From positions 1-42,102 of IMG/VR virus record IMGVR_UViG_3300044726_000069: a stretch of DNA of 42,102 nucleotides. One strand, 5' to 3'. The DNA is from a virus. Position numbers and translations under genes: made by a program. Below are positions 4,023 to 40,220 of this stretch, piece by piece (the first letter of the stretch is position 1; each line of letters starts with the position of its first letter). The notes below the pieces were generated by a model that saw only the letters and a list, made by a program, of their open reading frames with translations, was not told the DNA's origin and did no database searches.

Positions 4023-4067
4023 CTGGTACCTGGAACGCGCACCAATGAGGGAGAACGACAATGAGAG

Positions 4068-4175
4068 ATGACACCTATGGCGGGCATCACCGTGTTCGGG
4101 TTCTGGGCGGGCACAGGCACGGTCCTGGTCGGCCTGCTGTGCGCATGGCTGCTGAGGCTGGCCGATGAGTCATGA
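4068..4175 (+). CDS. Single-span small membrane protein
   Basis: 35 aa (32 aa if the ATG at 4077 is used). Nearly the whole chain is one membrane segment (ITVFGFWAGTGTVLVGLLCAWLLRLA) with a charged end (ADES). GAGGGAGA about 12 nt upstream is a possible ribosome site. The stop overlaps the helicase start by 11 nt. An out-of-frame ORF from 4061 has a slightly better placed ribosome site and an ATGA junction with the helicase, but encodes an implausible Gly/His/Arg-rich peptide. Confidence 0.5.
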   Translation: MTPMAGITVFGFWAGTGTVLVGLLCAWLLRLADES

Positions 4176-5745
4176 ACTCCCGGCCTGGGCGGACGAGCTA
4201 CGTCCGCACCAGGTCGACGCGATCGCCGAGATCCTGGACCACTACCAGCACGGCGTGAAGATGGTCGTGCTCGACGCCCCCACCGGCAGCGGGAAGACCC
4301 TGATCGCGGACGTGGTGCGCCAGGAACTGGGCGTCCCGAAGACGCTGTACGTCTGCTCCGGCAAGGCGCTCCAGGACCAGTTCGCCCGCGACTACCCCGA
4401 GTCCCGCATCATCAAGGGTCGCACGAACTACACGCCGAACAAGGTGCCCCGCATCGGGAAGATGGCGCTGACCTGCGACGACTGTAACGGCCCGGCCTGC
4501 ACCTACTGCGACCCTCAGGCCAGCTGCCCGTACCAGGTCGCCCGCACCGAGGCGTCCATCGCCGAGACGGCGGTGCTGAACACGTCGTACTACCTGGCCG
4601 AACTCAACGGGCCAGGGCGGTTCCGTCGCCGGAGCTTCACCATCTTCGACGAGTGCGACACCCTGGAGGAGAATCTCCTGAACTGGTCGCAGCTGGGCAT
4701 CTCGTCAGCCCGGTGCAAGACCCTCGGTGCGACGATGCCGCCGAAGGGTGCCCACTGGAAGACCCTCGTCGCGTGGGTGCGGGACCACCTGCTCACGGCG
4801 GTCGCGCTCCATATCCGGGGCTACAACCTGAAGGACCCGGCCCAGGCGAAGGAGGCCGAGGGCTGGAAGCGGTGGGAGCGGGACCTGGAACGGTTCGTCG
4901 ACAGTCGAGGCGGTGGTGAGGACTGGACGAAGGAGATGATCGGCCAGAAGCACCAGAGCCTCATGCTCAAGCCCACGATGGTGAGCGGGTTCGGGGAACG
5001 CGGGATCTGGCGACACGCGGGAACCGAGGACAAGTGGCTGCTCATGTCGGCCACGGTGCTGTCCGCCGCCGTCATGCTGAAGGAGTTGGGCTGGACCGAG
5101 GACTACCAGGTCGTCCGTGTCCCGATGACGTTCCCTGTGGAGAACCGCCCGATCTACAACCTGCCTCTGGCCCCCGTCATCTACGCGGCCACGGAGCAGG
5201 AGCTACAACGGCTTGCTGGGGGGGTGAGGGGCGTGGTGAACCGGCACCGAAGGGAGTCGGTGCTGGTCCACACCGTCAACTACGCGCTGACGGGACGGAT
5301 CGTCGCTGCGCTGGAGGGCACCGGGCGCAACGTCCACTTCTATACCAACGCCCGAGAGCGGGAGGCCGCGGTGGACGCATATCGACATGATCCTGGCTCC
5401 GTCATGGTAGCTCCGAGCCTGGATCGTGGTGTCGATTTGCCCGGCGACATGTGCCGCGTACAGGTCATCGCGAAGGTCCCGTGGCCCAACAGCAAGGATC
5501 GACGGGTGTCTGCACGCCTTGACGCCGACGGCGGGCAGGCATGGTACGATGTGCAAACCATACGCACCCTTGTGCAGATGACAGGTCGTGCTGTACGCTC
5601 AGCTGACGACACTGCTGTCACCTACATCCTTGACAGCAAGTTCACAGATCTGCACTCGAAACATCACCATATGTTCCCGAAGTGGTGGAACGATGCCGTC
5701 TCGACGCCGTTTCAGCCGCTCGAACTTCTTAATGCAAACACGTAA
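4165..5745 (+). CDS. DinG/XPD-like superfamily 2 DNA helicase
   Basis: 526 aa. Walker A is APTGSGKT (38-45); a Q-motif-like segment (ELRPHQVDAI) precedes it; motif II is DECD (162-165); motif VI is GRAVRS near residue 480. Between motifs I and II lie five cysteines (104, 107, 112, 115, 121), the position where DinG and XPD/Rad3 helicases hold a 4Fe-4S cluster that splits the strands; a zinc site is the alternative. It would unwind DNA 5'->3' or remodel branched or R-loop DNA during phage replication. The protein is shorter than E. coli DinG (about 716 aa). It heads a recombination cluster that includes a Cas4-like (also cysteine-bearing) nuclease. Confidence 0.85.
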   Translation: MSHELPAWADELRPHQVDAIAEILDHYQHGVKMVVLDAPTGSGKTLIADVVRQELGVPKTLYVCSGKALQDQFARDYPESRIIKGRTNYTPNKVPRIGKMALTCDDCNGPACTYCDPQASCPYQVARTEASIAETAVLNTSYYLAELNGPGRFRRRSFTIFDECDTLEENLLNWSQLGISSARCKTLGATMPPKGAHWKTLVAWVRDHLLTAVALHIRGYNLKDPAQAKEAEGWKRWERDLERFVDSRGGGEDWTKEMIGQKHQSLMLKPTMVSGFGERGIWRHAGTEDKWLLMSATVLSAAVMLKELGWTEDYQVVRVPMTFPVENRPIYNLPLAPVIYAATEQELQRLAGGVRGVVNRHRRESVLVHTVNYALTGRIVAALEGTGRNVHFYTNAREREAAVDAYRHDPGSVMVAPSLDRGVDLPGDMCRVQVIAKVPWPNSKDRRVSARLDADGGQAWYDVQTIRTLVQMTGRAVRSADDTAVTYILDSKFTDLHSKHHHMFPKWWNDAVSTPFQPLELLNANT

Positions 5746-20185: not shown

Positions 20186-20607
20186 GATGTGAACCCTTTG
20201 ACGGAGGCCAGGTGACCGGACTCAGACCCCATCGTCGTGCCGCGGTAGTCGGAGAACGGGGTGCCCGCGCGCGACGCGGGGGAGGTGGGGATGCCGACGG
20301 TGGGCTTGCCGGGCTGGGCGACCTTCGCCGCGTTCGCCGGGCCGGGGAGCGGGGTGACGGCAGGCGTGGTCGTGATGCCGTTGGCCTTCGTCTGGTTCGG
20401 GCGGAACGGGGCGGGCACGGGGAAGGACCGAGGATTCTGCGGCTGCTGGGTGGGGAGCCGGGACTGGGCCAGGATCGCGTTCTGGTACGACGCCCACGGG
20501 GTGGGGGACGGGCGGACGAGAGGTGTGACGATGTTGGGGGACGGGGTGCCCGGCGGGGACGCCTGAGTGGCGCGCCCGGCCCCCGCGAGGATCTGGCCGA
20601 GGTCCAC
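20182..20607 (-). CDS. Proline-rich virion-associated hypothetical protein
   Basis: 141 aa, GTG start overlapping the connector gene's stop. Rich in Pro, Thr, Ala and Gln with no predicted globular core, it probably is extended or disordered. Position between the connector gene and the internal virion proteins suggests a minor head or tail component, such as a linker to the ejection core (inference). Confidence 0.65.
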   Translation of the reverse strand: MDLGQILAGAGRATQASPPGTPSPNIVTPLVRPSPTPWASYQNAILAQSRLPTQQPQNPRSFPVPAPFRPNQTKANGITTTPAVTPLPGPANAAKVAQPGKPTVGIPTSPASRAGTPFSDYRGTTMGSESGHLASVKGFTS

Positions 20608-21290
20608 TACCAGCCACCCTGCGCGAGCCAGGCGGGCAGGTTCCCGGAGACGGGGGAACTGATCTGCCCGGCGGCCTCCACGTACCGACGCGACCGCTCC
20701 ATCAGTCGGACCACGTTCGCCTCATACAGCTGGAACGCCGTCTGCCACTCCGGGTTGCGATCGGTGCGTAGCGCGCGGAACTCGGCGTAGTCGACGACGA
20801 GGTCTTCCCACCCGGCCTGCACGGGGAGCGGGGCGTTGTCGTTCACCGTCTCGATGGGGGTCGAGTAGTAGTGGATGCGCAGGTTCGCGGAGTCCGACGG
20901 TGTCGGGTACAGGACGATGGAGAGTTGGGGCGGGTAGCCCTTCGTGGTGTACGTCCACGGCTCCCCCATCGACGACTCCTGGGACTCCCACCACACCTCG
21001 TCCATGTTGTTGAAGTCGCGGTACTCCAGGGCCTTGATGTCGTCGCTGTTCGCCGACTCCCATTCGACGCGGTAGATGCGGAGGAGGTCCGGGGGGCACG
21101 GGACGATGTTCACGCCGGGGATGACCGGGTTGAACTGGGCGGAGACGAGGACCGTCTCGGCGCGCCGGGACAGGTCCGTGACGCCCTCGTTGATCCATGT
21201 ATTCAGGCGCGCGTCGGTCCAGAACGTGGCGGTTTCCTCGTCGAGGCGGTCCCGGAGCCTGGTACGTGCCTGGAGCAGGGTCAGGGACAT
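20607..21290 (-). CDS. Head-tail connector/adaptor protein (gp11-like)
   Basis: 227 aa. The first 50 residues (LLQARTRLRDRLDEETATFWTDARLNTWINEGVTDLSRRAETV) are typical of the phage adaptor proteins that bind below the portal ring: a TFWTDARLNTWINEG-like motif followed by a beta domain around 50-150 and a helical end (EDLVVDYAEFRALRTDRNPEWQTAFQLYEANVVRLMERSRRY). Length agrees with T7 gp11 and related adaptors (about 190-240 aa). It would join the portal to the tail nozzle. Confidence 0.75.
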   Translation of the reverse strand: MSLTLLQARTRLRDRLDEETATFWTDARLNTWINEGVTDLSRRAETVLVSAQFNPVIPGVNIVPCPPDLLRIYRVEWESANSDDIKALEYRDFNNMDEVWWESQESSMGEPWTYTTKGYPPQLSIVLYPTPSDSANLRIHYYSTPIETVNDNAPLPVQAGWEDLVVDYAEFRALRTDRNPEWQTAFQLYEANVVRLMERSRRYVEAAGQISSPVSGNLPAWLAQGGW

Positions 21291-21302: not shown

Positions 21303-21848
21303 TCAGGTGAACTTGGTGGTAGGGAGGACTTCGGTGACGGAGAGGGACCAGAAGTCGTTGGCGTCCATGATGTGGGTGCCGCCGCCCGTGCCCCACGCGA
21401 TCTGGACGCTGTGCTTACCCGACGGCATCGTCTCGATCTTGTTGACCCCGGTGGTCAGGCGGTGGGCGTTGATGGCAGGGGGGTGGGAGCCTCCGATTCC
21501 CCCGCTGTACGCGATGCCGTTGAACAAGACGTTGAAGTACGACATGCCCGAAGGGTTGTGGTAGCTGGTGATGTTCAGGTGGAACAGCACCGCCGTCCAC
21601 GACTCCTCCTTGTAGAACACCGACGGGTACACGCGTGGCGCGTCGATGCGGAGAGTGGTGAGCGCGGTGTACCCCCCAGCGGTCGACGAGATGGTCGTGA
21701 CCGGACCGACGCCGTTATAGACCTGCGGCTCGAAGACCGGCGTGCGGTCGTACCGGGACTGGACGTGGTCGAAGTTCGCGTGGACCTGCTCGAACGTCGC
21801 CGCGCGCGGGTACGGGTAGTAGAAACGGGACTGTCCGCCGAGCGCCAT
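21303..21848 (-). CDS. Beta-sandwich structural protein
   Basis: 181 aa, beginning 1 nt inside the previous stop. It starts with an aromatic basic segment (GGQSRFYYPYPRAATFEQVHANFDHVQ), which may anchor it to the tail, followed by alternating strands resembling a TNF/C1q-like jelly roll (SWTAVLFHLNITSYHNPSGMSYFNV, HSVQIAWGTGGGTHI, FWSLSVTEVL). It may be a minor tail or fibre protein. Exact family not recognised. Confidence 0.65.
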   Translation of the reverse strand: MALGGQSRFYYPYPRAATFEQVHANFDHVQSRYDRTPVFEPQVYNGVGPVTTISSTAGGYTALTTLRIDAPRVYPSVFYKEESWTAVLFHLNITSYHNPSGMSYFNVLFNGIAYSGGIGGSHPPAINAHRLTTGVNKIETMPSGKHSVQIAWGTGGGTHIMDANDFWSLSVTEVLPTTKFT

Positions 21849-23836
21849 CAGTTCACCCGGGGCAGGGACTCGCGTGGGGTGAACACCATGTCGACGGAGT
21901 GCACCGACGGGAGGGGACCGTTGCCGTCACCGGTCGCGACGATGGACAGCGTCGTGCCCCAGTTCGTGCCGCGGGTGGAGTTGCGGTTCCGCACCGCTGC
22001 GTCGAGCCGGTACGACTGCGGGTGGTCGGTCACGTCGAACGTGACGGTGGAGGACGCGTCACCGCCTTCGACGACGAACTCCAGACTGCCGCGACCGGAC
22101 GCGACGACCTTGATCTCGCGACAGATCATGGAGCGGGAGTCGAGCAGGTCGGGGAACGGGTGCGACTTCCACGACCAGGACTCCCCGGCCGCGTCCTCGT
22201 ACAGGTCCATGTCGTAGCGGCACCAGAGCGTGTCGGAGTCGGCGGACTGGTACGCGGGCACGGCGTACAGGTGGCCGTCGGGGGAGCATTCGTAGTGCTG
22301 GTACGGAGGGGTGAGGGGGTTCGGCTTGTCCGGCATGCGCCACCACGCCCCGGAGTCGATGTCGCAGAACCAGTCGTTGGGGACGAACACGAACTTGCCC
22401 CACGCGCCGAGCTTGCCGCGACGGTGCGAGAAGAACGCCCGGTCGTACGTGCCGTTGCCGTCGTCGGTCACCCAGAACTTCGGGGGGAGGTTGGCGGACA
22501 GCGTGTCGGCCTGGCTGCCCTCGTTCCAGACGTGGCACCCGGACGCGCCGACGTACACGATGCCCTTGCGCGTCGCGACGGGGGTGGAGAAGTACGTGCC
22601 GGTCGGGGGGACGGCGGGCAGGTACGTCTCCTGGGACTTGTCGAGATCGCCGCGGATGACCGTCGCGCCACCGTTGATCTGCGTGACGAACAGGGTGGAC
22701 GCGTTGACGGAGCACAGGCCGGTCACGCCGTAGTCCTCCCCGCCGAACAGGTTCTTGTCGACATAGACCGGCGGGGTACCTGCCCACCCATCATCCACGA
22801 TGTCGTTCGCCGGGTTGTACGCGACGTTCGAGAAGATCGGCGTGCGGATGACGTGAGCCGGGTTGCCGAAGGTCAGATTGGACTGGTCGGCGGGAGCGGT
22901 GGAGAAGGGGAACGAGGGGTGGACGAACCGGAAGACGTGGTACACCGCGTTAGACGTGCCGCCGAGCGGGTTGGAGGCTTTCGTCGACCGGTTCGGCGTG
23001 GCCCACAGGGTGAGGCCGTCCGGGTCGCCCCAGGTGAACCAGTCCATCTGCTGGGTGGTTTCGGCGGGACCCCACGCGTTGTTGCCGTTGTACGGGCGGT
23101 AGTCGACGCCGTAGGTGGCCGCGCGCCAGAACAAGGTGCGGGTCACCTGGTTGTTCGCGGGGGTCGCGGTGGACAGGGTGTTCCACCCGATGAGCAGGTC
23201 GCCGGTCGGCCAGCGCATCTGCGCGTACGGCCCGGCGTCGGAGTAGTCGGGGACCGTGGAGAACCGGTGCTGCCAGCCGACACCGGCCGGGGTGTCGACG
23301 GGGAGCGTGCGGTCACCGGCCGGGGACGACAGCACCCAGCCCTTGAACATCGCGTTCGGGTAATACTTGGACGTCCCGCGCGCGTCGAAGAACTCATGGG
23401 TCGCGAGGATCATGACGTCGGAGATGCCGTGGTCGACGGTCACGCCGCCCGTGCCGTCGTAGCCGGGGGTGTGGAGCGCGGTCGCGACGATCCAGCGGTA
23501 GGGCGCTTCGGGGGGGCGGTGGGTGGAACCCCACTGGTTGAAGTTGTGGCCGGTCGCAGGCCACGGGGAGGCGGTCAGGGCGGCCCCGGAGCCGTTGCGG
23601 TACGTCGTGAACGTCGGCGGAGTTTCGGTGCGGTGCCGCATGCGCTTGAACGCCGGGCCGATGCTGCCGTCGACATGGGCGAGGCAGCCCTGCGTGCCCT
23701 TCGGCTGGGCCGCACCGGCCGCGACGATCGACGCACCACCGGAGGCCGGGCCACGCTCCTTCGGGTCGACGATCCCCGGCGAGAAGTCCTTGATGGAGAC
23801 GACGACGTCTTCTTCGGAGGCGACGCGTTCCGGCAT
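21848..23836 (-). CDS. Large tail structural protein, possible nozzle (gp12-like)
   Basis: 662 aa with no signal peptide, rich in Gly, Trp, Tyr and Pro, and beta-stranded throughout. The opening (VVVSIKDFSPGIVDPKERGPASGGASIVAAGAAQPKGTQGC) resembles the start of podoviral tail nozzle proteins, in which a DFSPGI-like motif recurs. Repeated WxxP and Trp-rich strands suggest a beta-propeller or multi-sandwich arrangement. The neighbouring connector gene supports the assignment. A receptor-binding tail protein is an alternative. Confidence 0.6.
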   Translation of the reverse strand: MPERVASEEDVVVSIKDFSPGIVDPKERGPASGGASIVAAGAAQPKGTQGCLAHVDGSIGPAFKRMRHRTETPPTFTTYRNGSGAALTASPWPATGHNFNQWGSTHRPPEAPYRWIVATALHTPGYDGTGGVTVDHGISDVMILATHEFFDARGTSKYYPNAMFKGWVLSSPAGDRTLPVDTPAGVGWQHRFSTVPDYSDAGPYAQMRWPTGDLLIGWNTLSTATPANNQVTRTLFWRAATYGVDYRPYNGNNAWGPAETTQQMDWFTWGDPDGLTLWATPNRSTKASNPLGGTSNAVYHVFRFVHPSFPFSTAPADQSNLTFGNPAHVIRTPIFSNVAYNPANDIVDDGWAGTPPVYVDKNLFGGEDYGVTGLCSVNASTLFVTQINGGATVIRGDLDKSQETYLPAVPPTGTYFSTPVATRKGIVYVGASGCHVWNEGSQADTLSANLPPKFWVTDDGNGTYDRAFFSHRRGKLGAWGKFVFVPNDWFCDIDSGAWWRMPDKPNPLTPPYQHYECSPDGHLYAVPAYQSADSDTLWCRYDMDLYEDAAGESWSWKSHPFPDLLDSRSMICREIKVVASGRGSLEFVVEGGDASSTVTFDVTDHPQSYRLDAAVRNRNSTRGTNWGTTLSIVATGDGNGPLPSVHSVDMVFTPRESLPRVN

Positions 23837-28463: not shown

Positions 28464-30029
28464 TCAGCGCGGCCAGTCAGGGATGAAGGTCGTGATGGTC
28501 TGGTCGCCCTGGAAGGTGCAGTCCGGGCCGACGGTGACGTACAGGTCGTCGAAGTTCGCGGTGACGCCGGTACCGCCACCCATGAGCTTGAACGAGTCGA
28601 ACACGGTCTTCGTGCCACCGAAGCGCGTGTCGATGCCGGACACCGAGATGATCTCGGCCTGGTTCAGGCGGACCACGACCGACCCGACCGTCTCGTCCAT
28701 GAACACCTTCGCCTCGATGTACACCCAGGAGGAGACAGGGACGAGGCCGCCGACGGAGTTGCCGATGACCGCACCCGTCGTACCGCCGCGCTGGACGGTG
28801 ACACTGCCGTCGGTCAGGACGGTGAAGGTGAGGTGGTTCGTGCCGTTCGTGTCGGAGGTGAGTTGGAGGAACGGGCGATTCGAGGTGAGGGAGTTGACCT
28901 TGTACGCCATGCCGAAGGTCAGGTGGGCCGACTCGTTCGGGGTGCCGAGCGCGAGGACCGCGTTCCCGGACCCGGTGATCTGACCCATGTTGCCGGAACG
29001 GCCACCTGCGACGGACGTGATGGAGCCGCCGGTCCATTCGGTCACGTCGGTGAAGGACTCGCGGAGGACTGAGGTGCACGCGCCGACAGGGACGACGGCG
29101 TGCGGGCCGATCCACGGGCCACGGTCCCACATCGTCTGCGACCAGCGCGACACGACCCCTTCCCACTGGTCGTCACCCCACGTCGCCGTACCCCACCGGT
29201 CCGTCGTGTCCCAGTCGTCGACCCCCCAGTGGGCCTTGCCCCAGGTGACGCCCGCGCGGACCGGGCCGAACACCTTCATCGGCTTCAGCACCCAGGCCGT
29301 GCCGTTCCAGTATTTGGACGGCTTCGTGACCCACGCGCTGCCGGTCCACACCTTCACCGGGTACGCGTTCCAGTCGGACTGCGCCGCGCCCGCGATGACA
29401 TGACCGAGGACGGTCAGGTTGATGCCGCCCGTGTCGAGCGTGCCGATGTCGGAGTACGTGCCGGGGTTCGCGTCGCGCCAGACGAGTTGGATGCCACGGT
29501 TGCCGGACCCGGCGGTGGAGAGATGTTTGACGCCTGCCGTGTAGCCGGTGCCTGCGGTGAGGATGCGGCCCGCGTTGATGAACGCCGTCGCGCCGAACAC
29601 GACGGATGAGTCGACCGGGGAGATCGCACCGCCGGACACCGCGGTGGAGGTCGTCTCGTTTGACGCACCGTGGGTGAGCGGAGGGGTGGTCGCGTCGGAG
29701 AACGCGGCGACGGCGATGGTGTGACGCGACATCGACGGGTTGTGCGCGATGAGAATGTTCGCGCCGACGGGGAGCGGGACGACGAGCACGCACGACGCGA
29801 GGGTGACGTTGGATGTCGCACCTGCGGACTGGCGGCCCGACTGCACCGTCCAGGAGTTCGTGCCGACCGAGTCGGAGACGAGGATGGTCGGAGCGGAGGT
29901 CGTGATCGACGCGATGCCGACGACGACGAGGGTGCCCGCCGGGAGGGTCTGGGGGACGGGGACGGCGAGCGGCGTGGTCGTGCCGGTCAGCGCAGAGTCG
30001 ACACCCCACTGGGCGAGAAGGGTGGGCAT
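28464..30029 (-). CDS. Tail fibre/receptor-binding-type structural protein
   Basis: 521 aa. N-terminal half: beta-rich with Thr/Ser/Val repeats (TLVVVGIASITTSAPTILVSDS). The middle has the tandem VWTGSAWVTKPSKYWNGTAWVLKP, a repeat common in actinophage minor tail and fibre proteins. A Trp-rich hinge (VTWGKAHWGVDDWDTTDRWGTATWGDDQWEGV) follows, and the C-terminal part from about residue 320 looks like a laminin-G/ConA-type beta-sandwich (SFTDVTEWTGGSIT..., GNAVLALGTPNESAHLTFGMAY..., FDDLYVTVG). It probably contacts host carbohydrate. The gene starts 6 nt after the upstream gene's stop. Confidence 0.7.
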   Translation of the reverse strand: MPTLLAQWGVDSALTGTTTPLAVPVPQTLPAGTLVVVGIASITTSAPTILVSDSVGTNSWTVQSGRQSAGATSNVTLASCVLVVPLPVGANILIAHNPSMSRHTIAVAAFSDATTPPLTHGASNETTSTAVSGGAISPVDSSVVFGATAFINAGRILTAGTGYTAGVKHLSTAGSGNRGIQLVWRDANPGTYSDIGTLDTGGINLTVLGHVIAGAAQSDWNAYPVKVWTGSAWVTKPSKYWNGTAWVLKPMKVFGPVRAGVTWGKAHWGVDDWDTTDRWGTATWGDDQWEGVVSRWSQTMWDRGPWIGPHAVVPVGACTSVLRESFTDVTEWTGGSITSVAGGRSGNMGQITGSGNAVLALGTPNESAHLTFGMAYKVNSLTSNRPFLQLTSDTNGTNHLTFTVLTDGSVTVQRGGTTGAVIGNSVGGLVPVSSWVYIEAKVFMDETVGSVVVRLNQAEIISVSGIDTRFGGTKTVFDSFKLMGGGTGVTANFDDLYVTVGPDCTFQGDQTITTFIPDWPR

Positions 30030-30035
30030 GGGGGC

Positions 30036-30575
30036 CTAGTTCGTGTCGACCCAGACGTCACCGACCGCGGGTGCGAGGGGTGGGGAAGTACCGGTGCTGA
30101 CCTTCACGCCGATGTTGTTGGCGGTCACGTTGCCGACGGCCTGCACGTCCTTCGCGACGAACACGTCGCCGTCGCCGTAGACCGCGAACAGGTTCGTGTT
30201 CAGGTTGCGGTCGTCGGAGACTTGGAGGACGGGGACGGTCATGTCACGGTTGCCGTCGGCCGTGAATTCCTTCGAGTAGCAGCGCAGCGCGACGGTCGTG
30301 GCCTTCGCCGCGATGGCGCGGATCTCGCCGTACTCGTTGAAGTACCCGGTGCGGCGGATGCGGGTGCCGTCGTCGTAGTTGAAGCGGAGGCGTTCCGGCC
30401 AGGAGGAAGTGGCGGTGTTGTCGTTGCGGATGTTCAGGTTGCCGAGCACGTCGGTGAGCGCGACGAGTTCGACGGGAGTGTCCGCGGTGCCGTGGGACAC
30501 GTCGCCACCGCCCGTGCCGCCACCTCCGATGACGTCGACCCAGGTGCCGCCGACATTGACGCGTAGGACTCCCAT
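30036..30575 (-). CDS. Fibre-type protein with MGVLR N-terminal module
   Basis: 179 aa. The opening (MGVLRVNVGGTWVDVIGGGGTGGG) is shared with the next upstream gene ([18 protein letters not shown]), so the first about 20 residues look like a common attachment module. The remainder is beta-rich with regularly placed strands (NLNIRNDNTA..., LRFNYDDGTRIRRTGYFNEYG, LFAVYGDGDVFVAKDVQAVGNVTANNIGV), similar to trimeric fibre shafts, and ends AVGDVWVDTN. Confidence 0.7.
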   Translation of the reverse strand: MGVLRVNVGGTWVDVIGGGGTGGGDVSHGTADTPVELVALTDVLGNLNIRNDNTATSSWPERLRFNYDDGTRIRRTGYFNEYGEIRAIAAKATTVALRCYSKEFTADGNRDMTVPVLQVSDDRNLNTNLFAVYGDGDVFVAKDVQAVGNVTANNIGVKVSTGTSPPLAPAVGDVWVDTN

Positions 30576-30584
30576 GTCGACTCC

Positions 30585-31436
30585 TTAGGTCTTGATGATG
30601 AAGTGGATGCCGCGGACCGGGTGGACGGTGTTGTGGCCCTGGTTCGCGCCCTGGGCGGCGATGCCGTGAAGGTGGTTGATGTCGGTGCGCCCCGTACCCC
30701 ACCGCGAGTTCATCGTGCCGCCCGTCAGAAGGCCGCCGATGTGGGAGACGGGGCCTTGCGACGTGACGAGCATCTCGCCACCGTTTTCCGCACCGTGAGT
30801 GTGGCCCGAATCGCGGTCCATCGCCCCCGTGTAGCCACTGTGGTTGTGGGACGGCATCTGGTTCAGGTCGATGGCGACGGACTCGTTCCCCCACGCCTGG
30901 CCCATCGTGTAACTGTTGCCCTGACCGGACGGGCCGACACCGACCGGGGACCGGCCGCGGAGATCGGGGAGCACGAAGTTCGGGCCGGAACCGCCGAAGT
31001 TGTACGCGATGGCCGCGAACAGCGCCGGGAACGCGATCGTCGTGAGGGTCTGGCCCTGGCAGAGGAGCCACCCGGTCGGGGAGGACAGGCCACCGAACAT
31101 GGCGACCGTGCCGGTCGGCGTGGACGACATGGGAATCCAGGCCGTGCCGTTCCAGGTGGAGTACAGGTTCGTGTCCTGCGAGTAGGCCATCTGGCCTTCG
31201 ACGGGAGCGGTGATCGCCGCGTCGCGGTCCAGGTCCGACGCGAAGATAGGGACGCGGCCCTCGTAGTCCGAGTCGGCGTCGTAGTAGATGCGACCGTCGG
31301 TGCCGGTGGTGAGATCGTTGCCCGGATCGGCCGAGACGGTCGTGATACCCGACGGACCGGGGGGGCCTTGAGGGCCGGGCGCGCCGACGGTCAGGTCGAC
31401 CCACTCGTTGCCGACGCGCGCGCGCAGGACACCCAT
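30585..31436 (-). CDS. Tail collar-domain protein with collagen-like linker
   Basis: 283 aa. After the MGVLR module (1-18) comes a short collagen-like GPQGPPGPSG stretch, a beta region with FASDLDRDAAITAPVEGQMAYSQDTNLYSTWNGTAW, then a phage tail collar domain at about 95-150 (GTVAMFGGLSSPTGWLLCQGQTL, DLRGRSPVGVG) and a C-terminal region ending HPVRGIHFIIKT, typical of collar/Mdp-type fibre proteins. It would form a trimer at the particle surface and carry host-binding or cell-surface interactions. Confidence 0.8.
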   Translation of the reverse strand: MGVLRARVGNEWVDLTVGAPGPQGPPGPSGITTVSADPGNDLTTGTDGRIYYDADSDYEGRVPIFASDLDRDAAITAPVEGQMAYSQDTNLYSTWNGTAWIPMSSTPTGTVAMFGGLSSPTGWLLCQGQTLTTIAFPALFAAIAYNFGGSGPNFVLPDLRGRSPVGVGPSGQGNSYTMGQAWGNESVAIDLNQMPSHNHSGYTGAMDRDSGHTHGAENGGEMLVTSQGPVSHIGGLLTGGTMNSRWGTGRTDINHLHGIAAQGANQGHNTVHPVRGIHFIIKT

Positions 31437-32071
31437 CAGGGCACCACCGGATCAGCGTCAGGGTCGTACCAGAGTTCGTAAGTCGGGCCGGGTTCCTCCG
31501 TGCCGATCTTCACCTCGTCGAGCGCGCCGAAGTCCGGGTCGGACGACGGGTCGTACCAGAGCAGGTAGGAGAACCCGGGGTCGGTGTCGGTGACGATCAC
31601 CTCCGCGGGAATCGTCATCCACTTCATGTCGTAGTCGGTGGAGGACGCCTTGACGAGCGCCTGGTCGGTCGTACCGCCGGGGATGATGCCGAGGCCCTGC
31701 GGTCCGGCGATGCCGGTGGGGCCAGGGGGGCCGAGGGGGCCTTGCGGACCTGACGGACCGGGGGAGCCGGTCGGGCCTTTCATCGTGCCGCGCTGGGTCC
31801 AGGAGGACGCGCCGGTCTTCTCGTAGAACGCGCCGGACACGGCGTCGATGTACCAGTCGCCGACGTTGTACGAACCGTCGGGCGGCGGGCCGGAGGACGA
31901 GTACCAGCCTTCGCCCTGACCGGCGGGACCGGTCGCGCCCGTGACACCCTGCGGGCCTGCCGGACCGGCGGGGCCGGGAGGGCCGGTCAGCCCCTGCGGG
32001 CCGTTGGGGCCAGCCGGGCCGGGGGCACCGCCGCCGAGTTGGCCGCCGATCTCCCATCCTTGAGTCGGCAT
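31436..32071 (-). CDS. Collagen-like fibre protein
   Basis: 211 aa, stop overlapping the next start. Two Gly-X-Y blocks (about residues 14-50 and 96-122: [20 protein letters not shown]..., [20 protein letters not shown]) would trimerise as a collagen helix; between them lies [29 protein letters not shown], a unit common in fibre proteins. The C-terminus carries a duplicated motif: [16 protein letters not shown] and [17 protein letters not shown] fibre-shaft role is likely. Confidence 0.75.
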
Positions 32072-32901: not shown

Positions 32902-34722
32902 CTACTGGGGGGCTGCCTGGGCGGTGAGCATGGCCTGGCGTTGCTGCATGACCCGTTCGTACACCTGCGCGTAGTGCGGCCAGCGGTGGGCCTGGAGGAG
33001 CGCGATCTCGTCGATGGCACCCGCGGAGAACAGGAAGTTCGCCTTCTCCGCCATTGCTTGTGGGGAGATCGGGAGTTGGGACCCGGCGTTGATGTTGAGT
33101 TGGAACTTGAGCGGGATCGCGCCCTGTTCGGTGTCGGTCATGAAGTGCCGGGAACGCAATGCCAGGGTGGTGCGCTCCCCGGTCGGACCGACAACTGCCA
33201 CGGTCCGGGGGACTGTGTAGTTACGCACCACCAGCTGGGCGTACTTGGTGAACGCGGATCGAAGGCAATACTCCATGTTGCGGAGGGCCAGTCGGATGCG
33301 GACGAACGAGGACTCCTGAACTGCATTCATCACGTCCGTGGAGTTGCGACCCGTGGGCACGGTGCCGCGGGTCATGGCGGACAGGCCGCTGATCTTCTCC
33401 ATCTCGGCCAGGTGGAACTCGATGAGCCACTTGTGGGCCTCGGCGACCGCGGGCGGGTCCATCCAGTCGACGTCACCGCCGTCGCCGACCTGGATGCGCG
33501 TGCCCGGACGGTTCGTGATCGGCGTGCGGTGCAGGAGGGACCGGACGTTGTCCTTCAGGATCGGGTTACCGGTCAGTTCGAGGTTCTGCTGGATCGCCGC
33601 GAGGGACCGGTTGATCGCGATTTGGGACGGGGTCAGGTCCTCCACCATCGACCGGCCCCAGAAGCTGCCGGTTTCGTGCTGCACGAACCGGTCGTACGGG
33701 TGCCAGTTGTGGCCGAACAGGTTCTCGGCGGAGTCGTCGAGCAGGACGCGGTTGCCGCACACGACGACGCAGCGCCACATCTCCTCGGTGGAGGTCGGGT
33801 ACGCGGTGTCCTCCGCCTCGTTCGGCATGTGGACGTGCTCGCGCATCCAGCACTCGAACACGGTGACGGGCTGGGAACGGACCGGGTCGACCTTGTCGCG
33901 TGACTGGCCGGGCAGGCCGTAGGAGGGAGTGTGCCCGGAGATCGCGCCCGGGTTCGCCATCGGGAGGGAGGTGGAGGGATCGTCCGGGGAGGGTTCGCGG
34001 TCGATGCCCTCCTGGCTGCCCATGAGGAGCGCGTTCGGGTTCTTCGCCGCGCCCGGGTAGCGGCGGTCGAGTTCCTGGAGCGACATCGTGCGGACTTCGA
34101 TGTAGAACGAGCCGTCCTCGGTGGAGGTCGCGTGCGGGTCCGGGTAGAAGTGGTACGGGTTCGTGCGGCAGAGCGCGACGTTGCCGAGGCCGCCGTCGAG
34201 TGACTGGTCCCAGACGGTCTTCACGATGCCCGTGCCGAGCGTGTACGCGTCCCAGGTGCACTTCTCGACTTCACGTTCCTGGGTCTGCGCGATGAACGCG
34301 GACGAGATGACGGTGGTCAGGTCGTCGGACAGGGCGAGCCAGAAGTCGTGGTACGGGGTGTTGGGGGCCGTGAACGGGACCGCGTCGAAGGTGGGACGCG
34401 TGTCGGTCACCCACCCCACGATCGAAGCCAGGATCGGGTAAATCTCAGGGACTTCGGGCGTCGGCATCCATCGGGGACGCGACGCCAGCCACGTCCGGTT
34501 CGCGAGGACTTCGGCGTTGCGGTTCCACTGGGCGGTGCGGCTACGGCGGCCCTCGCGGGACTGGGAGAACAGGTCGCGCACGGCGGCGGCGAGGCCAGCT
34601 TCGGACTCAGGAACAGCGCCGTCACCGAACGTGAAGTTCTCACGCTGACCCTTCCCGGGTGTGGGGGACATGCCGAACGTCTTGTCGCGGACCGGGGTGG
34701 ACGCGCGAGACGCAGTTGGCAT
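32902..34722 (-). CDS. Portal protein
   Basis: 606 aa. Length, the acidic/basic mix, a clip-like helical section and a wing domain agree with podoviral portal proteins. Signs include an N-terminal Ser/Arg-rich arm, a region ALSDDLTTVISSAFIAQTQEREVEKCTWDAYTLGTGIVKTVWDQ typical of portal wing helices, the stem-type segment SLAAIQQNLELTGNPILKDNVRSLLHRTPITNRPGTRIQVGDGGDVDWM, and a helical crown (KYAQLVVRNYTV, then PQAMAEKANFLFSAGAIDEIALLQAHRWPHYAQVYERVMQQRQAMLTAQ). It forms the ring through which DNA is packaged and ejected. Confidence 0.8.
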   Translation of the reverse strand: MPTASRASTPVRDKTFGMSPTPGKGQRENFTFGDGAVPESEAGLAAAVRDLFSQSREGRRSRTAQWNRNAEVLANRTWLASRPRWMPTPEVPEIYPILASIVGWVTDTRPTFDAVPFTAPNTPYHDFWLALSDDLTTVISSAFIAQTQEREVEKCTWDAYTLGTGIVKTVWDQSLDGGLGNVALCRTNPYHFYPDPHATSTEDGSFYIEVRTMSLQELDRRYPGAAKNPNALLMGSQEGIDREPSPDDPSTSLPMANPGAISGHTPSYGLPGQSRDKVDPVRSQPVTVFECWMREHVHMPNEAEDTAYPTSTEEMWRCVVVCGNRVLLDDSAENLFGHNWHPYDRFVQHETGSFWGRSMVEDLTPSQIAINRSLAAIQQNLELTGNPILKDNVRSLLHRTPITNRPGTRIQVGDGGDVDWMDPPAVAEAHKWLIEFHLAEMEKISGLSAMTRGTVPTGRNSTDVMNAVQESSFVRIRLALRNMEYCLRSAFTKYAQLVVRNYTVPRTVAVVGPTGERTTLALRSRHFMTDTEQGAIPLKFQLNINAGSQLPISPQAMAEKANFLFSAGAIDEIALLQAHRWPHYAQVYERVMQQRQAMLTAQAAPQ

Positions 34723-35113: not shown

Positions 35114-35377
35114 TCAGACCGTACCCGTGGGGTCGTCCTCCGAGTCGGGATGCTCATGGCGGCGCTCCCAGACCAGGGCCGCCGCCGCGCCCAGGTACCC
35201 GGCGACCGCCCCCGCCATCACGCCGCCCAGGCCGGTGAGCAACTGGATGCCCGCGTCGGACACGTCGTCGTCGAGCGCGGCGGCCGTCATCGAGATCGCC
35301 CAGCCCGCGGACAGGAACAGGGCGACGATGAACGCAGTCGCCCCGGCCCAACCGTGGGTCGACTGCGGGGCCTTCAC
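35114..35377 (-). CDS. Holin
   Basis: 87 aa from GTG 35377, which overlaps the endolysin stop as GTGA; the longer frame overlaps the endolysin gene. Two membrane spans at about residues 11-35 (AGATAFIVALFLSAGWAISMTAAAL) and 42-70 (AGIQLLTGLGGVMAGAVAGYLGAAAALVW) are followed by a charged tail (ERRHEHPDSEDDPTGTV). This is the usual structure of class II holins, and it sits next to the M15 endolysin. It would form the membrane holes that set the time of lysis. Confidence 0.75.
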   Translation of the reverse strand: MKAPQSTHGWAGATAFIVALFLSAGWAISMTAAALDDDVSDAGIQLLTGLGGVMAGAVAGYLGAAAALVWERRHEHPDSEDDPTGTV

Positions 35378-35580
35378 CCCTGGGTCGCGCGGACGGACTG
35401 CTCGTTGAGCCGGTCCACCAGCCACTGGCGGCCGCCCATCGGGACAGCATCGCCGATGCCCATGATCGGCACCTTCGGGGACGACTCGGTGGCCTGGACG
35501 TACTCGTCGAACTCCTGGAACTCGAACAGGACGTGCCCGATGAGGGCGTACAGGCCGATGGAGTGCACGGACAGGAACAT
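35374..35580 (-). CDS. Probable internal-start product: free C-terminal endolysin domain
   Basis: In frame within the endolysin, ATG 35580 (residue 171) is preceded by AGGAG at 35593-35589 with 8 nt spacing, an ideal ribosome site in a place where the gene encodes a Pro/Thr linker. The product would be the 68-aa C-terminal domain alone. Several known endolysins make such a second product, which assembles with the full-length protein. Prediction from sequence only. Confidence 0.55.
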   Translation of the reverse strand: MFLSVHSIGLYALIGHVLFEFQEFDEYVQATESSPKVPIMGIGDAVPMGGRQWLVDRLNEQSVRATQG

Positions 35581-36090
35581 GGTGGGTTCTCCTGGGAGGG
35601 TCGTGGACGTGGGCGGGACGGGAGTGGGGGCCTGCGAACCGGCGATGCCCGTCGCGAGGTCGGCGGGCGTGCAGTCCACCTCGTAGTGCATCGCGTCCTT
35701 GTTGCCGGACCAGCTACCGCCCCACTCCCAGACGCGCTTGCCGTTGTTCGTCTTCAGCGCGGTGATCTCGTTGACCATCCCCTGGGGCATGTCCGTGACG
35801 AGGTTCGGGCCGTACGGGTTCGTCGACCAGTTGATGTCGAGCGCGATGCCGTACGCGTGCAGGGAGTACCCGGAGCCGCCCGTGATCTGACGGCAGTTGT
35901 ACGCGCCCGTGTCGTTCTTCCGCGTGAAGTAGTTCCACTTCACCAGGACGTCGTTCAGGCGGGTGACGGCTTCGCGCATGCGCGGGTCGACGGTGACGCG
36001 GCCCTCACCGTTCAGGTTGAGCGTGACGAACGTGGAGGCGGCGCACGGGGGTGCCCAGGCGCTACGGAGTTGGCTCGTCGACAGACCCAT
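35374..36090 (-). CDS. M15-family peptidase endolysin
   Basis: 238 aa. The M15 (L-Ala-D-Glu / D-Ala carboxypeptidase-like) domain covers about residues 1-140: H78-x6-D85 in SLHAYGIALDIN and H135 in DAMHYEVD are the zinc ligands, and the WEWGGSW segment (121-127) is typical of VanY-like endolysins. A Pro/Thr linker (153-168) leads to a C-terminal domain of about 68 residues beginning at M171 (MFLSVHSIGLYALIG), of unknown family, probably wall-binding. There is no signal peptide, so export needs the holin. An internal start with an ideal ribosome site precedes M171. The stop overlaps the holin GTG. Confidence 0.85.
   Translation of the reverse strand: MGLSTSQLRSAWAPPCAASTFVTLNLNGEGRVTVDPRMREAVTRLNDVLVKWNYFTRKNDTGAYNCRQITGGSGYSLHAYGIALDINWSTNPYGPNLVTDMPQGMVNEITALKTNNGKRVWEWGGSWSGNKDAMHYEVDCTPADLATGIAGSQAPTPVPPTSTTLPGEPTMFLSVHSIGLYALIGHVLFEFQEFDEYVQATESSPKVPIMGIGDAVPMGGRQWLVDRLNEQSVRATQG
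35589..35593 (-). promoter_or_regulatory. Internal ribosome binding site in the endolysin gene
   Basis: AGGAG on the minus strand, 8 nt from ATG 35580. It decides the internal start described for the C-terminal domain. Confidence 0.6.
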
Positions 36091-36187
36091 CGTCGTCCTC
36101 CTGGTCTTCGAGTTCCGGGTTGGAGCCGTGCGGCGCGACGGGTTGGGACTGGTCGTCGTCGTGTTCGTGGTCGGTGTACTCGCTCAT
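36062..36187 (-). CDS. Short acidic protein
   Basis: 41 aa (MSEYTDHEHDDDQSQ...DEPTP). ATG 36187 overlaps the previous stop (ATGA), and the 3' end overlaps the endolysin start by 29 nt. About a third of the residues are Asp or Glu. It may couple translation of the endolysin to the four upstream genes or be an assembly factor. Confidence 0.55.
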   Translation of the reverse strand: MSEYTDHEHDDDQSQPVAPHGSNPELEDQEDDDGSVDEPTP

Positions 36188-36555
36188 GGCAGGGTCCCCC
36201 ATGCGACTGCGTTGACGGATGTGGACGGCAGGGACGAGTACGTGCCGATGTCGTTGGCGGCCGCGGCGAGTGACGCGAGTCGGACGTACAACCCGGACCC
36301 GTTGGCGGCCGCCCACACTTCGGTGACGACGTTGTGCGTGTCCGCGGTGCCCTGGGCCGCCGAGGCGGCGACACCCCCGACGACCGTGGCAAGACCGAAC
36401 GTGGCCGCCGGGATGACCATGTACCCGTTCGCGTCGGTGCCGAGGGTGACGTGTGCGAACCGCAGCTGGATGGTGCGCGCCGTCTCGTCGTGGACCCACT
36501 GCCCCCACGTCGCGAGGAGTTGGTCGTCCTTGTCGGGACGGTCAGGAACGGCCAT
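36184..36555 (-). CDS. Structural protein with shared WGQWVHD module (4 of 4)
   Basis: 123 aa. Opens MAVPDRPDKDDQLLATWGQWVHDE, the module common to four consecutive genes, then a short beta-rich domain (IQLRFAHVTLGTDANGYMVIPAATFG..., NVVTEVWAAANGSGLYVRLASLAA) distinct from its neighbours. Predicted as a small particle-surface protein held by the common N-terminus. The gene starts 3 nt after the previous stop and ends overlapping the acidic small gene. Confidence 0.7.
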   Translation of the reverse strand: MAVPDRPDKDDQLLATWGQWVHDETARTIQLRFAHVTLGTDANGYMVIPAATFGLATVVGGVAASAAQGTADTHNVVTEVWAAANGSGLYVRLASLAAAANDIGTYSSLPSTSVNAVAWGTLP

Positions 36556-36558
36556 CGG

Positions 36559-37104
36559 TCACCCCCATGTCGCCACCGCCGGGGTCGCAGGCCGGTTCAG
36601 CAGCATGACCGCCAGGTTCGCCTGGTACGTCGTGATCGCCGCGCCCGAATCCTGGTACGTCTTCAGCTGGAGCGTGTCGCCTGCGTTGAGGACGACGATC
36701 GCCGCGGTCGTGATGTACTGCGTCGTGGCCCCACCGGGTGGGACGGACGACCCGATGACGAACGGGACGACGAGGCCCGTCGGTCCCTTCGCGATCTCCG
36801 CGGTACGCGTCGTGCCGCCCGTGTTCGCGTTGTAGATGATGTTGCCGACCACCAGGTACACGCCCGTGTTGTTCGGCGGGACGGTGAGCGTCGTGCCGTT
36901 CGCCGCGATCCAAGTGCCGCCGACCTGGCGTTGGATCGTCGCAACTTCGAGAGTGATGACCGACGGCGTGCCCGACGGGATCGACTGGGCCGTGGCCCGG
37001 CCGATGATGATGCCGGGGACCTGCGCGGTGAGCGAGTCGTGGACCCACTGCCCCCAGAGCGGGTCGACGATCGCGTCGTCGGCGGGGCGGGCGGGGACGG
37101 TCAC
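36559..37104 (-). CDS. Structural protein with shared WGQWVHD module (3 of 4)
   Basis: 181 aa from GTG 37104 (overlap GTGA with the previous gene). Starts VTVPARPADDAIVDPLWGQWVHDS, matching its neighbours at TRP, VP, RP and WGQWVHD. The rest is beta-rich (GTPSVITLEVATIQRQVGGTWIAANGTTLTVPPNNTGVYLVVGNIIYN, TTQYITTAAIVVLNAGDTLQLKTYQDSGAAI), with the strand pattern of a C1q/TNF-like jelly roll. It is likely a trimeric surface protein. Confidence 0.7.
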   Translation of the reverse strand: MTVPARPADDAIVDPLWGQWVHDSLTAQVPGIIIGRATAQSIPSGTPSVITLEVATIQRQVGGTWIAANGTTLTVPPNNTGVYLVVGNIIYNANTGGTTRTAEIAKGPTGLVVPFVIGSSVPPGGATTQYITTAAIVVLNAGDTLQLKTYQDSGAAITTYQANLAVMLLNRPATPAVATWG

Positions 37105-37589
37105 AGCGGGATCACCAGTCGCATCGTGAATCGCGCCCACTGGAAGCCGAGGGAGATGGCCGTGTTCTGGTACAGGACGACGTCGATCGTGTCGTTCAAG
37201 GCGAGCTTGACGTCACCTGCGAGAGACAGGATCGCGACTTCAGCACCCGGCGGAGTCATCTCGACCTGAGGCATCCCCGCCGTCGACCCGTTGAGCCGGA
37301 ACGCCATGTGTCGCCGTGTGCCACTGCTGTTCGAGTCGTAGTAGCCGCCCGCCGTGACGTGATACCAGCCCGCCGCCTTCGCCGTGTACAACGACGCGGA
37401 CGTGCGACACCCGGCGACATCACGATCGACGACGTCGTACTGGATCGCGACGATCGTGGAAGCAGGGGCGGTGAAGGGGGTCGTGCGATGCGCGGCCGCG
37501 CCGTGCGGGGTCGCGACCTGGTCCTGCACCCACCGGCCCCATTCGGCGTCGATGAGTTCGTCGGGGTCGGGACGGTCGGGGACAGCCAT
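37101..37589 (-). CDS. Structural protein with shared WGQWVHD module (2 of 4)
   Basis: 162 aa from ATG 37589, which overlaps the stop of the upstream paralogue. The module reads MAVPDRPDPDELIDAEWGRWVQD; the domain after it is the clearest jelly roll of the four: SLYTAKAAGWYHVTAGGYYDSNSSGTRRHMAFRLNG..., AILSLAGDVKLALNDTIDVVLYQNTAISLGFQWARFTMRLV, as in C1q/TNF-like phage fibre heads. Role inferred: particle-surface or fibre protein. Confidence 0.75.
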   Translation of the reverse strand: MAVPDRPDPDELIDAEWGRWVQDQVATPHGAAAHRTTPFTAPASTIVAIQYDVVDRDVAGCRTSASLYTAKAAGWYHVTAGGYYDSNSSGTRRHMAFRLNGSTAGMPQVEMTPPGAEVAILSLAGDVKLALNDTIDVVLYQNTAISLGFQWARFTMRLVIPL

Positions 37590-38101
37590 CAGACCGGTCC
37601 CACGTCTTCGACCCACACCTGAAGGGGGCAGGACGAGTTCTGGATGTTGATGTTCCCGGTCCCGGCTGCACGTCGGACCTGCCACTTGTAGGTGTGACTC
37701 CCCGCGGTCGGAGTGTCCAGGCAGTCGGCCTGGCCCCACGTCGCGTACGCCGAAGTCAACACTCCTGCTCCGCAGCACACCCCTACGAAGATCCTGTGCA
37801 CGGCTCCGTCCTTGAGGAGTTGCCACCCGTCGTTGTTCCCGGCGTCGGAGTAGAGCGCCATCCCCAGCCGGAACCGGTACCGACGACCGGCGACCGCGGT
37901 GAAGGTGAGGCTCGTACCGACGACGTCGACGTACGTGGCACTCGCGATGCCCATTTGGTCGGTCGAGGTGGTGGCGTAGGCGATGATGCCGCCCGCCGCT
38001 CCGCCGTTGGGCTGGCCCGTGTTCGCGAGGGCGTCGTGGACCCACTGCCCCCAGTCCTCGTCGATGACGTGGTCGTAGTCGGGGCGCGTCGGTACGGCCA
38101 T
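37589..38101 (-). CDS. Structural protein with shared WGQWVHD module (1 of 4)
   Basis: 170 aa. Opens MAVPTRPDYDHVIDEDWGQWVHDA; then a variable linker and a beta domain (TYVDVVGTSLTFTAVAGRRYRFRLGMALYSDAGNNDGWQLLKDGAVHRIFVGVCCG..., HTYKWQVRRAAGTGNINIQNSS..., VWVEDVG). Strand spacing again resembles a C1q/TNF-type sandwich. It stands first of the family, directly after the FmdB-like gene. Confidence 0.7.
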   Translation of the reverse strand: MAVPTRPDYDHVIDEDWGQWVHDALANTGQPNGGAAGGIIAYATTSTDQMGIASATYVDVVGTSLTFTAVAGRRYRFRLGMALYSDAGNNDGWQLLKDGAVHRIFVGVCCGAGVLTSAYATWGQADCLDTPTAGSHTYKWQVRRAAGTGNINIQNSSCPLQVWVEDVGPV

Positions 38102-38466
38102 CAGTGGTCCCCGTGCTGCACGGCGCGCGACGTCGCGATGAACTCCGGGTCGACGCCGAGGGCCTTGTGGTCGGACGGGTCGGCGGGCTGGTAGTTGTGC
38201 TCGATGCCGGTGCGGGTGCTGGCCTCGTCGGACATGCGCTTCATGTTGTCACTGATGCCCTTGGCGCTGGAGGCCGTCCCGTACATGGGGGACGTGTGCT
38301 CATGCACAACGGACGCGATCTGGACGTCGTACACCCGGTGTCCGGTACCGCCGCAGAGCGGGCAGCGCAACAGGACGCCCGCGGGCCGCGACTCGTATTC
38401 GGGGATCGTCAGCGAGTGGTGCCACAGGTAGTCGCACGGGTCGCAGGCGAACTCGTACGTGGGCAT
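38101..38466 (-). CDS. FmdB-type zinc-ribbon protein
   Basis: 121 aa from ATG 38466, overlapping the terminase stop (TGATG). MPTYEFACDPC... is the typical start of FmdB-family zinc ribbons: C8-x2-C11 and C35-x2-C38 (CPLC). A longer helical/charged tail follows (SSAKGISDNMKRMSDEASTRTG...), longer than in standalone FmdB proteins. Such a protein between terminase and structural genes may regulate late expression or packaging; this is inference. Confidence 0.75.
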   Translation of the reverse strand: MPTYEFACDPCDYLWHHSLTIPEYESRPAGVLLRCPLCGGTGHRVYDVQIASVVHEHTSPMYGTASSAKGISDNMKRMSDEASTRTGIEHNYQPADPSDHKALGVDPEFIATSRAVQHGDH

Positions 38467-40220
38467 CACCAGGACCCGGCTGCTTCCATCTCATCCTCGC
38501 GGTCGTACCAGAAGTCAGGAGCCACAGCTTCCCTCACGGTGGTGTGGGCCGGGGTGATGCTGGGGAGCGGGGCCGTCCCGTACGGGGGGAGCGGGGACTC
38601 GGTGCTGGCGCACAGGCAGGCGATGGCGAGCGCGGCGACGGTGTCGTCGTAGCCGTCCTCGTCGGCCGGGCCGTACCCGCCGCCATCCAACGTGACGTAG
38701 TCCTGCATCTCCGCGAACGTCTGGGCGTCGTGGATGGTGATGTCCTGGTCGACGACGAGCTTCAGCAGGTGCCCCACCCACCACTCCTTCGTCTTCACGG
38801 TCGTGTTGAACCCGTACTGGTTGGACAGGATGCCGGGCATCTTGTCGGCGTACCGGTTGCGCCACAGGTGCGGGTACGGCATCTGGATGAGGCGGCCGAT
38901 GGTTTCGGTGCCCGGGCCGGTCGACTCCGGGGCGACCATCGCCTGGTTGTAGTAGTTGCCCAGCTTCGCGATCTCCTCGGCGAACGAGCCGGGGTCGATG
39001 CGGGCACGCCAGCGCGCGACCTGGCGGTAGTCGCGCCGGTTGATGATCTGGATGCACGCCATGTCGCCGCGGGTCGTGCCGGTCGGGTCCGCGCCGCCGA
39101 AGTACACGCCCCACTCGCGATCCTCGGAGGGGTAGCTGAAGATCGTCAGCGGGCCGTCCGGGTCGGGCTGGAAGCGCACCCCGTTGCGCACGTTCGTGTC
39201 GCGGGTCAGGCGGCCCGTGATCCCTGACTTCTTGTCGTAGCAGCCGAGGAGCTTGCGGAACGGGAACACGTTGCTGCCCGACGCGATGAACGCCTCCTCC
39301 GGGAACGACGGGTACTCCTGGTGGAAGTCATCGACGTTGTTGCCCGCCAGCGTGACGATCGCCCACCGCCGCCAGATCAGCGCGTCGAGCACCTCGTCGC
39401 CGGTCATCCTTCCGCGTCCGTCATGGCCCAACAGCATCATCCGTTCCAGCTGCTTCTCCTCCTCCGACATGTCCTTCAGCCGTCCGAGGTTGTTCAGCAT
39501 CGTCCACGACGTGACCGCCATGTTCGGGTCGTGCGGCATCGCGTCGAAGTGCCGACGCGCGTACGACGCCCGGTACTCGTAGTGCCGCCACCACGGGAAG
39601 AACATCGGGACGTATTCGTTCTGCCCGTTACACGCCTCGTTCCACGTCTTGTAGAAGTAGTTGCCGATGCCGTTCGCGGTGGACTCCAGCGCCATGAACG
39701 TGTGCGGCTCGAAGGGGACGGTCTGCTTCATGCCGAGCATGAGCGTGCGCGCGTTGTCCCAGAACCCGACCTCGGAGCAGTGGACGTACCGGAGCGTGCG
39801 GGACCGGGTGGCCGCCTCGTTCTTCGCGGTGACGACCTGGATGCTGCTGTTGTTGTCCTTCCACGCGAGGTGCTTCTTCGAGATGTACTTGGTTGCGAAC
39901 AGCGGGGAGAAGTCGGCGGTTTCGTAGTACCGGCGCGTGATGCCGAGCAGGTGCTCACTGCCGTCCATCTCATGGGCGATGATGAGGCCCGGGTAGTCGG
40001 GGATGACCATGACGAGGCAGAAGCCGATGCCCCCGGTCGCGGTGCTGATGCCCAGCTGGCGCGCCTTGAGGACGATCATGCGGACGGGGCGCTGCTGGTT
40101 CCACTGCCGGTGGAACTCGCCGATGTACTCGTCCTGCGCCCAGTTGCGGTGCCACGGCCCGACGATGCCCGTGCTCCGGTCCTGGATCTTCAGGTCGTCG
40201 AGGATCGGGTAGAGGTTCAT
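38466..40220 (-). CDS. terL: Large terminase subunit
   Basis: 584 aa. ATPase part: adenine-contact region, Walker A KARQLGIST (52-60), Walker B RYVHCSEVGFW (144-154), with the motif III region (LESTANGIG) after it. Nuclease part: Asp/Glu residues of the RNase H-like fold in GGADPTGTTRGD (about 365-376) and EDGYDDTVAALA (about 550-560). It cuts and translocates DNA through the portal. The preceding small gene is the candidate small subunit. Start ATG 40220 overlaps that gene (ATGA). Confidence 0.9.
   Translation of the reverse strand: MNLYPILDDLKIQDRSTGIVGPWHRNWAQDEYIGEFHRQWNQQRPVRMIVLKARQLGISTATGGIGFCLVMVIPDYPGLIIAHEMDGSEHLLGITRRYYETADFSPLFATKYISKKHLAWKDNNSSIQVVTAKNEAATRSRTLRYVHCSEVGFWDNARTLMLGMKQTVPFEPHTFMALESTANGIGNYFYKTWNEACNGQNEYVPMFFPWWRHYEYRASYARRHFDAMPHDPNMAVTSWTMLNNLGRLKDMSEEEKQLERMMLLGHDGRGRMTGDEVLDALIWRRWAIVTLAGNNVDDFHQEYPSFPEEAFIASGSNVFPFRKLLGCYDKKSGITGRLTRDTNVRNGVRFQPDPDGPLTIFSYPSEDREWGVYFGGADPTGTTRGDMACIQIINRRDYRQVARWRARIDPGSFAEEIAKLGNYYNQAMVAPESTGPGTETIGRLIQMPYPHLWRNRYADKMPGILSNQYGFNTTVKTKEWWVGHLLKLVVDQDITIHDAQTFAEMQDYVTLDGGGYGPADEDGYDDTVAALAIACLCASTESPLPPYGTAPLPSITPAHTTVREAVAPDFWYDREDEMEAAGSW

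Follow-up and report, generated by a model that had tools for sequence, protein, structure and literature searches.

The window analysed here, 42,102 bases long, comprises a whole IMG/VR virus record, and the virus is a metagenomic contig. Four short genes lie side by side on its minus strand: A (37589..38101, 170 aa), B (37101..37589, 162 aa), C (36559..37104, 181 aa, with a GTG start) and D (36184..36555, 123 aa). Each opens with a 24-residue anchor head, encoded at 38030..38101 in A (24 codons), 37518..37589 in B, 37033..37104 in C and 36484..36555 in D (all minus strand), behind which lies a body of type II in A, type I in B and C, and a short type III in D. Neighbouring genes overlap or meet at their junctions (TGATG, GTGA and a 3-nt gap); thus, the four genes probably form one translationally coupled operon. 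Upstream of A is a gene for a Zn-ribbon-like protein (38101..38469, minus strand), which has weak zinc-ribbon matches and is itself preceded by the terminase gene (38466-40220, minus strand). On the other side, the gene for a Peptidase_M15_4 endolysin (35374..36090, minus strand) is directly downstream of the array, and a small acidic ORF containing an HG-x-N motif (36065..36187, minus strand) is present between D and the endolysin. An earlier note on this DNA had described four neighbouring genes with a common N-terminal motif, starting at 38101, 37589, 37104 and 36555 and located between terminase and lysis genes, and both the genes and their setting are confirmed. The HG-x-N motif recurs in acidic ORFs that precede homologous endolysin genes at five other loci (L008, L078, L079, L082 and L091).

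The heads of A (MAVPTRPDYDHVIDEDWGQWVHD), B (MAVPDRPDPDELIDAEWGRWVQD), C (VTVPARPADDAIVDPLWGQWVHD) and D (MAVPDRPDKDDQLLATWGQWVHD) share the consensus VPxRPxxD..I...WG[QR]WV[HQ]D. When a profile built from three heads is used to search for the fourth among the 658 six-frame ORFs of the window, the left-out head is recovered with E values of 3.9e-13 (A), 2.3e-10 (B), 6.8e-8 (C) and 5e-11 (D), while the best unrelated ORF reaches only 0.57. The likeness of the heads is not due to chance. As the earlier note observed, the DNA encoding WGQWVHD is nearly the same in three of the genes; it is in fact identical at 21/21 bases in A, C and D. However, the codon bias of the phage alone would give three identical encodings with a chance of ~5% (17% for a pair) and so accounts for most of this identity, which by itself is no evidence of recent duplication; a recent duplication is a needless explanation. 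In AlphaFold models the anchor is predicted with low confidence (about 40-54), and in the model of A it appears as two short, low-confidence helices. Searches of GenBank phages by tblastn, using A, B, C, D and a 27-aa head as well as the corresponding proteins of four other phages described below (L008, L011, L043 and L044), returned no convincing relative, and no mention of WGQWVHD was found in the literature searched. Given these two results, at the sensitivity used, the head appears to be new.

Behind the heads, the bodies fall into fewer groups than was first thought. The earlier note had the heads diverging into different jelly-roll-like beta domains, and A, B/C and D do differ, having no sequence relation to one another at z>4. 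However, the bodies of B and C are homologous along their length (26% identity, BLASTP E 1e-13; z 9.3 for the bodies only), and there are therefore three body types (A; B and C; D) rather than four. The AlphaFold model of C, a monomer prediction of modest confidence (pLDDT 65.5), is a beta sandwich with 281 PDB matches at E<=0.001 and a probability of 1.00, led by phage spikes, exosporium proteins, C1q, TNF ligands and the BC2L-C lectin. The phi812 central-spike knob (E 9.8e-8) and a cyanophage short tail fibre are among them, and in BFVD the model matches, among others, phage C1q proteins and a minor tail protein from Gordonia. When the C1q-type proteins are combined into a profile, it gives weak matches (E 0.004-0.018) to three minor capsid/spike entries of the PDB (1yq5, 1yq8 and 6q5u). 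A TNF/C1q-like jelly-roll fold is thus supported for C by the predicted structure and for B by homology; the bodies of B, c1, c2 and L044 are homologous to it by sequence. The model of A (again a monomer, pLDDT 65.8) is also a beta sandwich, with 10 PDB matches at E<=0.001 and a TM of about 0.5; the best is the TNF-like tip Bd2734 of a Bdellovibrio MAT fibre, followed by BC2L-C, with scores lower than those of C. A probably has a fold related to that of C, the modelled evidence for a TNF-like fold being weaker than for C itself. The orthologue of A in the close relative described below is DUF7298/phrog_4817-like. D has no family, PDB or profile match below 0.05, and a search for further relatives of its body found only one, in that same close relative. 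No enzymatic domain is detected in A-D.

The exchange of bodies behind the heads can be seen by comparing the window with IMGVR_UViG_3300037119_003439 (L008), the sole close relative that shows it. The portal proteins of the two phages are 97% identical (92% at the DNA level), and L008 carries three module genes in the same slot. The DNA of the heads is 82% (A), 85% (B) and 79% (C) identical, similar to that of the flanking genes for the Zn-ribbon-like protein (84%), the endolysin (88%) and the portal (92%). The bodies, in contrast, are identical at only 54% (A; 50% when shuffled), 46% (B; 45% shuffled) and 61% (C; 52% shuffled). Thus, the heads have been kept like the flanking genes (79-85% versus 84-92%), and the bodies have been replaced behind them. 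The head of gene b of L008 is of the B type, with 19/24 residues identical to the head of B; its body does not match that of B at z>4, but does match that of D (z 10; full-length BLASTP of D against b, E 5e-17). As judged from these matches, gene b is a chimera of a B-type head and a D-type body. Gene c of L008 encodes a second jelly roll, which resembles the body of B (z 7.6) and matches BclA_C (E 1e-5). The search of related genomes for swapped C-termini behind a constant module, proposed in the earlier note, is therefore positive in L008 (heads 79-85%, bodies 46-61%), and the comparison supports a constant anchor with exchangeable bodies.

The module is also present in phages of another tail type. 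Degenerate pattern scans of IMG/VR yielded three siphophage-type contigs with a tape-measure-like gene (L011, L043 and L044), each of which contains one module gene directly after the tail-hub gene, the hub being assigned by position and length, without a family match. The bodies of these module genes are C1q-like in L044, weakly C1q-like in L011 and of another type in L043. In siphophages, small receptor-binding proteins are usually encoded at this position after the tail hub. Conversely, bodies of the array types occur with other heads: in L070-L075 the gene after the tail hub combines the head TTFVSGAVLTAAQMNNLPWG with an A-type body; in L076 a gene just before the tape measure joins an A-type body to a WGNTIRD head; Micromonospora phage pMLP1 (CP058906) encodes a C1q-type body with the head AWTNNVDALDSTNLNAYLRD in the gene next to its tail hub, on the downstream side; and in L096 a C1q-type body is encoded immediately ahead of an acidic ORF and the gene for a homologous M15 endolysin. 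Since A-type and C1q-type bodies are found behind other heads and the module is found on other bodies, head and body assort independently across phages. In the isolated Gordonia phage Erutan (L098, OR475273), a C1q-type protein annotated as hypothetical is encoded right after the terminase, portal and esterase genes (5027-5614). A strict pattern search of genome contigs for the module gave no match; four matches to a looser contig pattern are false positives as judged by their reading frames, and the pattern matches L010, L014-L017 and L045-L052 are not module genes either.

Within a virion setting, A, B and C (and D) might join through their heads into one mixed fibre or baseplate piece rather than serve as separate alternative tips. 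The translational coupling of the genes, which implies similar amounts of the proteins, is consistent with such a heteromeric complex, and gp35/36/37 of mycobacteriophage Mysterious, which form a heterotrimer (PMC13252515), provide a precedent. However, the siphophage records contain a single copy of the module, L008 has only three of the genes, and the A, B/C and D bodies have no mutual sequence relation at z>4, so that a mixed complex seems a rather doubtful arrangement.

The portal (32902-34722, minus strand) and adaptor (20607-21290, minus strand) of the window match the P22/SU10 families. In minus-strand order, the terminase, the Zn-ribbon-like gene, A-D, the acidic ORF, the M15 endolysin, two small ORFs and the portal are followed by tail-fibre-like genes (collagen-like, collar), head genes, a 662-aa putative nozzle inferred from its position (21848-23836, minus strand) and the adaptor; this gene order also includes very large proteins. 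A 181-aa protein encoded between the adaptor and the putative nozzle gene (21303-21848, minus strand) is unrelated in sequence to the bodies of A-D at z>4. Two of the fibre genes (30036-30575 and 30585-31436, minus strand) share another N-terminal start, MGVLR.xVGxxWVD, and thus constitute a second tail set with a shared head. In nearly all portal relatives in which the stretch is readable, the terminase, Zn-ribbon-like and portal genes are adjacent, with the Zn-ribbon-like gene directly preceding the portal gene in most. The array and lysis block is thus an insertion, present only in the window and L008 among the portal relatives read, and the module is not a general trait of this portal family, since L008 alone has it among the relatives whose stretches were read. 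In a distant relative (L007), the terminase/Zn-ribbon/portal slot contains genes for other small, beta-looking proteins (3743-4123 and 4254-4601, plus strand).

This setting bears on two other explanations. Because the array adjoins the endolysin gene, and because the array and lysis block sit together between genes that are adjacent in most relatives, which suggests joint gain, A-D could be non-virion proteins for lysis or cell-wall handling, such as secreted cell-wall binding or superinfection exclusion proteins. This is very improbable, however: by eye, the N-termini of A-D are polar with no obvious signal peptide, phage TNF/C1q knobs are mostly found in spikes and fibres, and the module gene of the siphophages is adjacent to the hub. 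Alternatively, the anchor could bind the capsid or neck, making A-D capsid decorations or head fibres whose knobs provide weak cell adhesion or stability to the head. Such a role would fit the location of A-D in the packaging part of the genome (terminase, portal), the similarly placed Erutan protein, and the match of the B body to phrog_13989, annotated 'head and packaging, virion structural protein' (E 1e-6). However, the siphophages carry the module gene behind the tail hub and well away from their head genes, and bodies of these types fill the same hub-adjacent slot in other siphophages; we therefore consider decoration of the capsid unlikely, though less so than a role in lysis.

The reading we favour, and regard as probable, is that A-D are a set of small, anchored, virion-attached receptor-binding proteins with exchangeable tips. 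The earlier note had suggested a variable particle-surface or receptor-binding set, and the exchange of bodies, the predicted fold of C and the hub-adjacent module in siphophages all point in this direction; from them we infer the presence of A-D in particles, their docking site and trimeric state, sugar binding and a role in host range. Through their first ~24 residues, the four proteins would attach to equivalent sites on the short tail, and each of these short, probably trimeric, virion-attached proteins would expose its C-terminal body as a beta-sandwich knob in contact with the cell surface, where a glycan is the most likely target. The conserved heads may act as short homology blocks across which bodies are exchanged, and through such exchange the phage could change or combine its binding tips. 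Since the window already has fibre-like genes near the portal (28464-32071), A-D would be additional to these. The array adjoins the lysin and terminase genes, whereas in L011, L043 and L044 the module gene directly follows the tail hub; in the window, it is also at a distance from the genes for the SU10-like adaptor and the putative nozzle, which counts against this reading.

A candidate for the site to which the heads dock is a Trp-rich segment (WGxAxWGxDxW). Searching the ORFs of the window and 99 loci, several of which are the same contigs, with the expression W[GDN].[AED].[WF][GDN].{0,4}W matched this segment only in the five module-bearing phages. In the siphophages L011, L043 and L044 it is encoded by the tail-hub gene that immediately precedes the module gene; in the podoviruses it is within a 521-aa tail-fibre-region protein (28464..30029, minus strand; WGKAHWGVDDWDTTDRWGTATWGDDQW, about residues 263-290) and its L008 orthologue. 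The C-terminal part of this protein is homologous to L076 7912-8550. Among seven hubs compared, the segment is present in 3/3 that have the module (L011, L043 and L044) and in 0/4 that have other heads (L070-type, L072-type, pMLP1 and L096), a split expected by chance 1 in 35 times, or about 1 in 10 when related hubs are collapsed. Since the expression was composed after the motif had been noticed, the link is offered as a hypothesis only. A search for the Trp repeat in GenBank phages gave only matches with E>=7; this says little about the background, as queries that are short and of low complexity have poor sensitivity. That the WGxWVxD head and the Trp-rich segment form a transferable plug-and-socket pair is a tentative idea drawn from this correlation, and probably not the correct one. 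If it were true, the socket would allow a phage to take on any body that bears the plug, which would explain both the spread of the module across tail types and the tandem arrays, and the two elements would make a minimal, testable docking pair.

Accounts of host recognition by a constant anchor and a variable tip usually deal with a single gene. Here, very small proteins are encoded in tandem and share an anchor of 24 residues that occurs in phages with short as well as long tails; such a set would amount to a compact, naturally occurring means of host recognition, and the exchange of its tips is directly visible in a pair of near-identical genomes. The earlier note knew of no described system of this form, but a constant N-terminus with a variable C1q/TNF tip has been reported both in pelagiphages (PMC3909814) and in Bdellovibrio MAT fibres (PMC10769870). 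In the putative C1q receptor-binding proteins of pelagiphages, the N-terminus recruits well and the C1q domain under-recruits (PMC3909814), and cryoconite phages also contain variable C1q genes (PMC7468147). As in B and C, the tip of these proteins is C1q-like, and it varies among otherwise near-identical phages; their genes, however, are near or downstream of the tail fibre (PMC3909814, PMC7468147), whereas the module array consists of 3-4 tandem short genes that have a common 24-residue anchor and adjoin the terminase and lysin genes. The C1q-type gene of pMLP1, directly after the hub, differs from the module in its head and in being a single copy. The modular receptor-binding proteins of Klebsiella phages likewise have a constant N-terminal anchor and an exchanged distal domain, but are reported to be depolymerase spikes with anchor domains (PMC6872550, PMC12692247); A-D have only 123-181 aa, a very short anchor and no detected enzymatic domain. 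The MAT fibres of Bdellovibrio, whose likeness to A-D is one of layout, are also paralogues, many in number, with a constant N-terminal domain and swappable tips, including TNF-like ones, but they are cellular, have about 600-1000 aa and are displayed by the bacterium (PMC10769870). SU10, whose portal and adaptor families are related to those of the window, has fibres with a helical proximal domain and T4-like tips (PMC9509320). Three tryptophans on a loop of its nozzle hold the short tail fibre (PMC9509320), and a Trp-based dock for A-D may have its parallel here. The principle is thus already known, and the novel part is the anchor and layout of A-D: this particular anchor, the tandem four-gene array, the spread across podo- and siphophages and the co-occurring Trp-rich segment seem undescribed.
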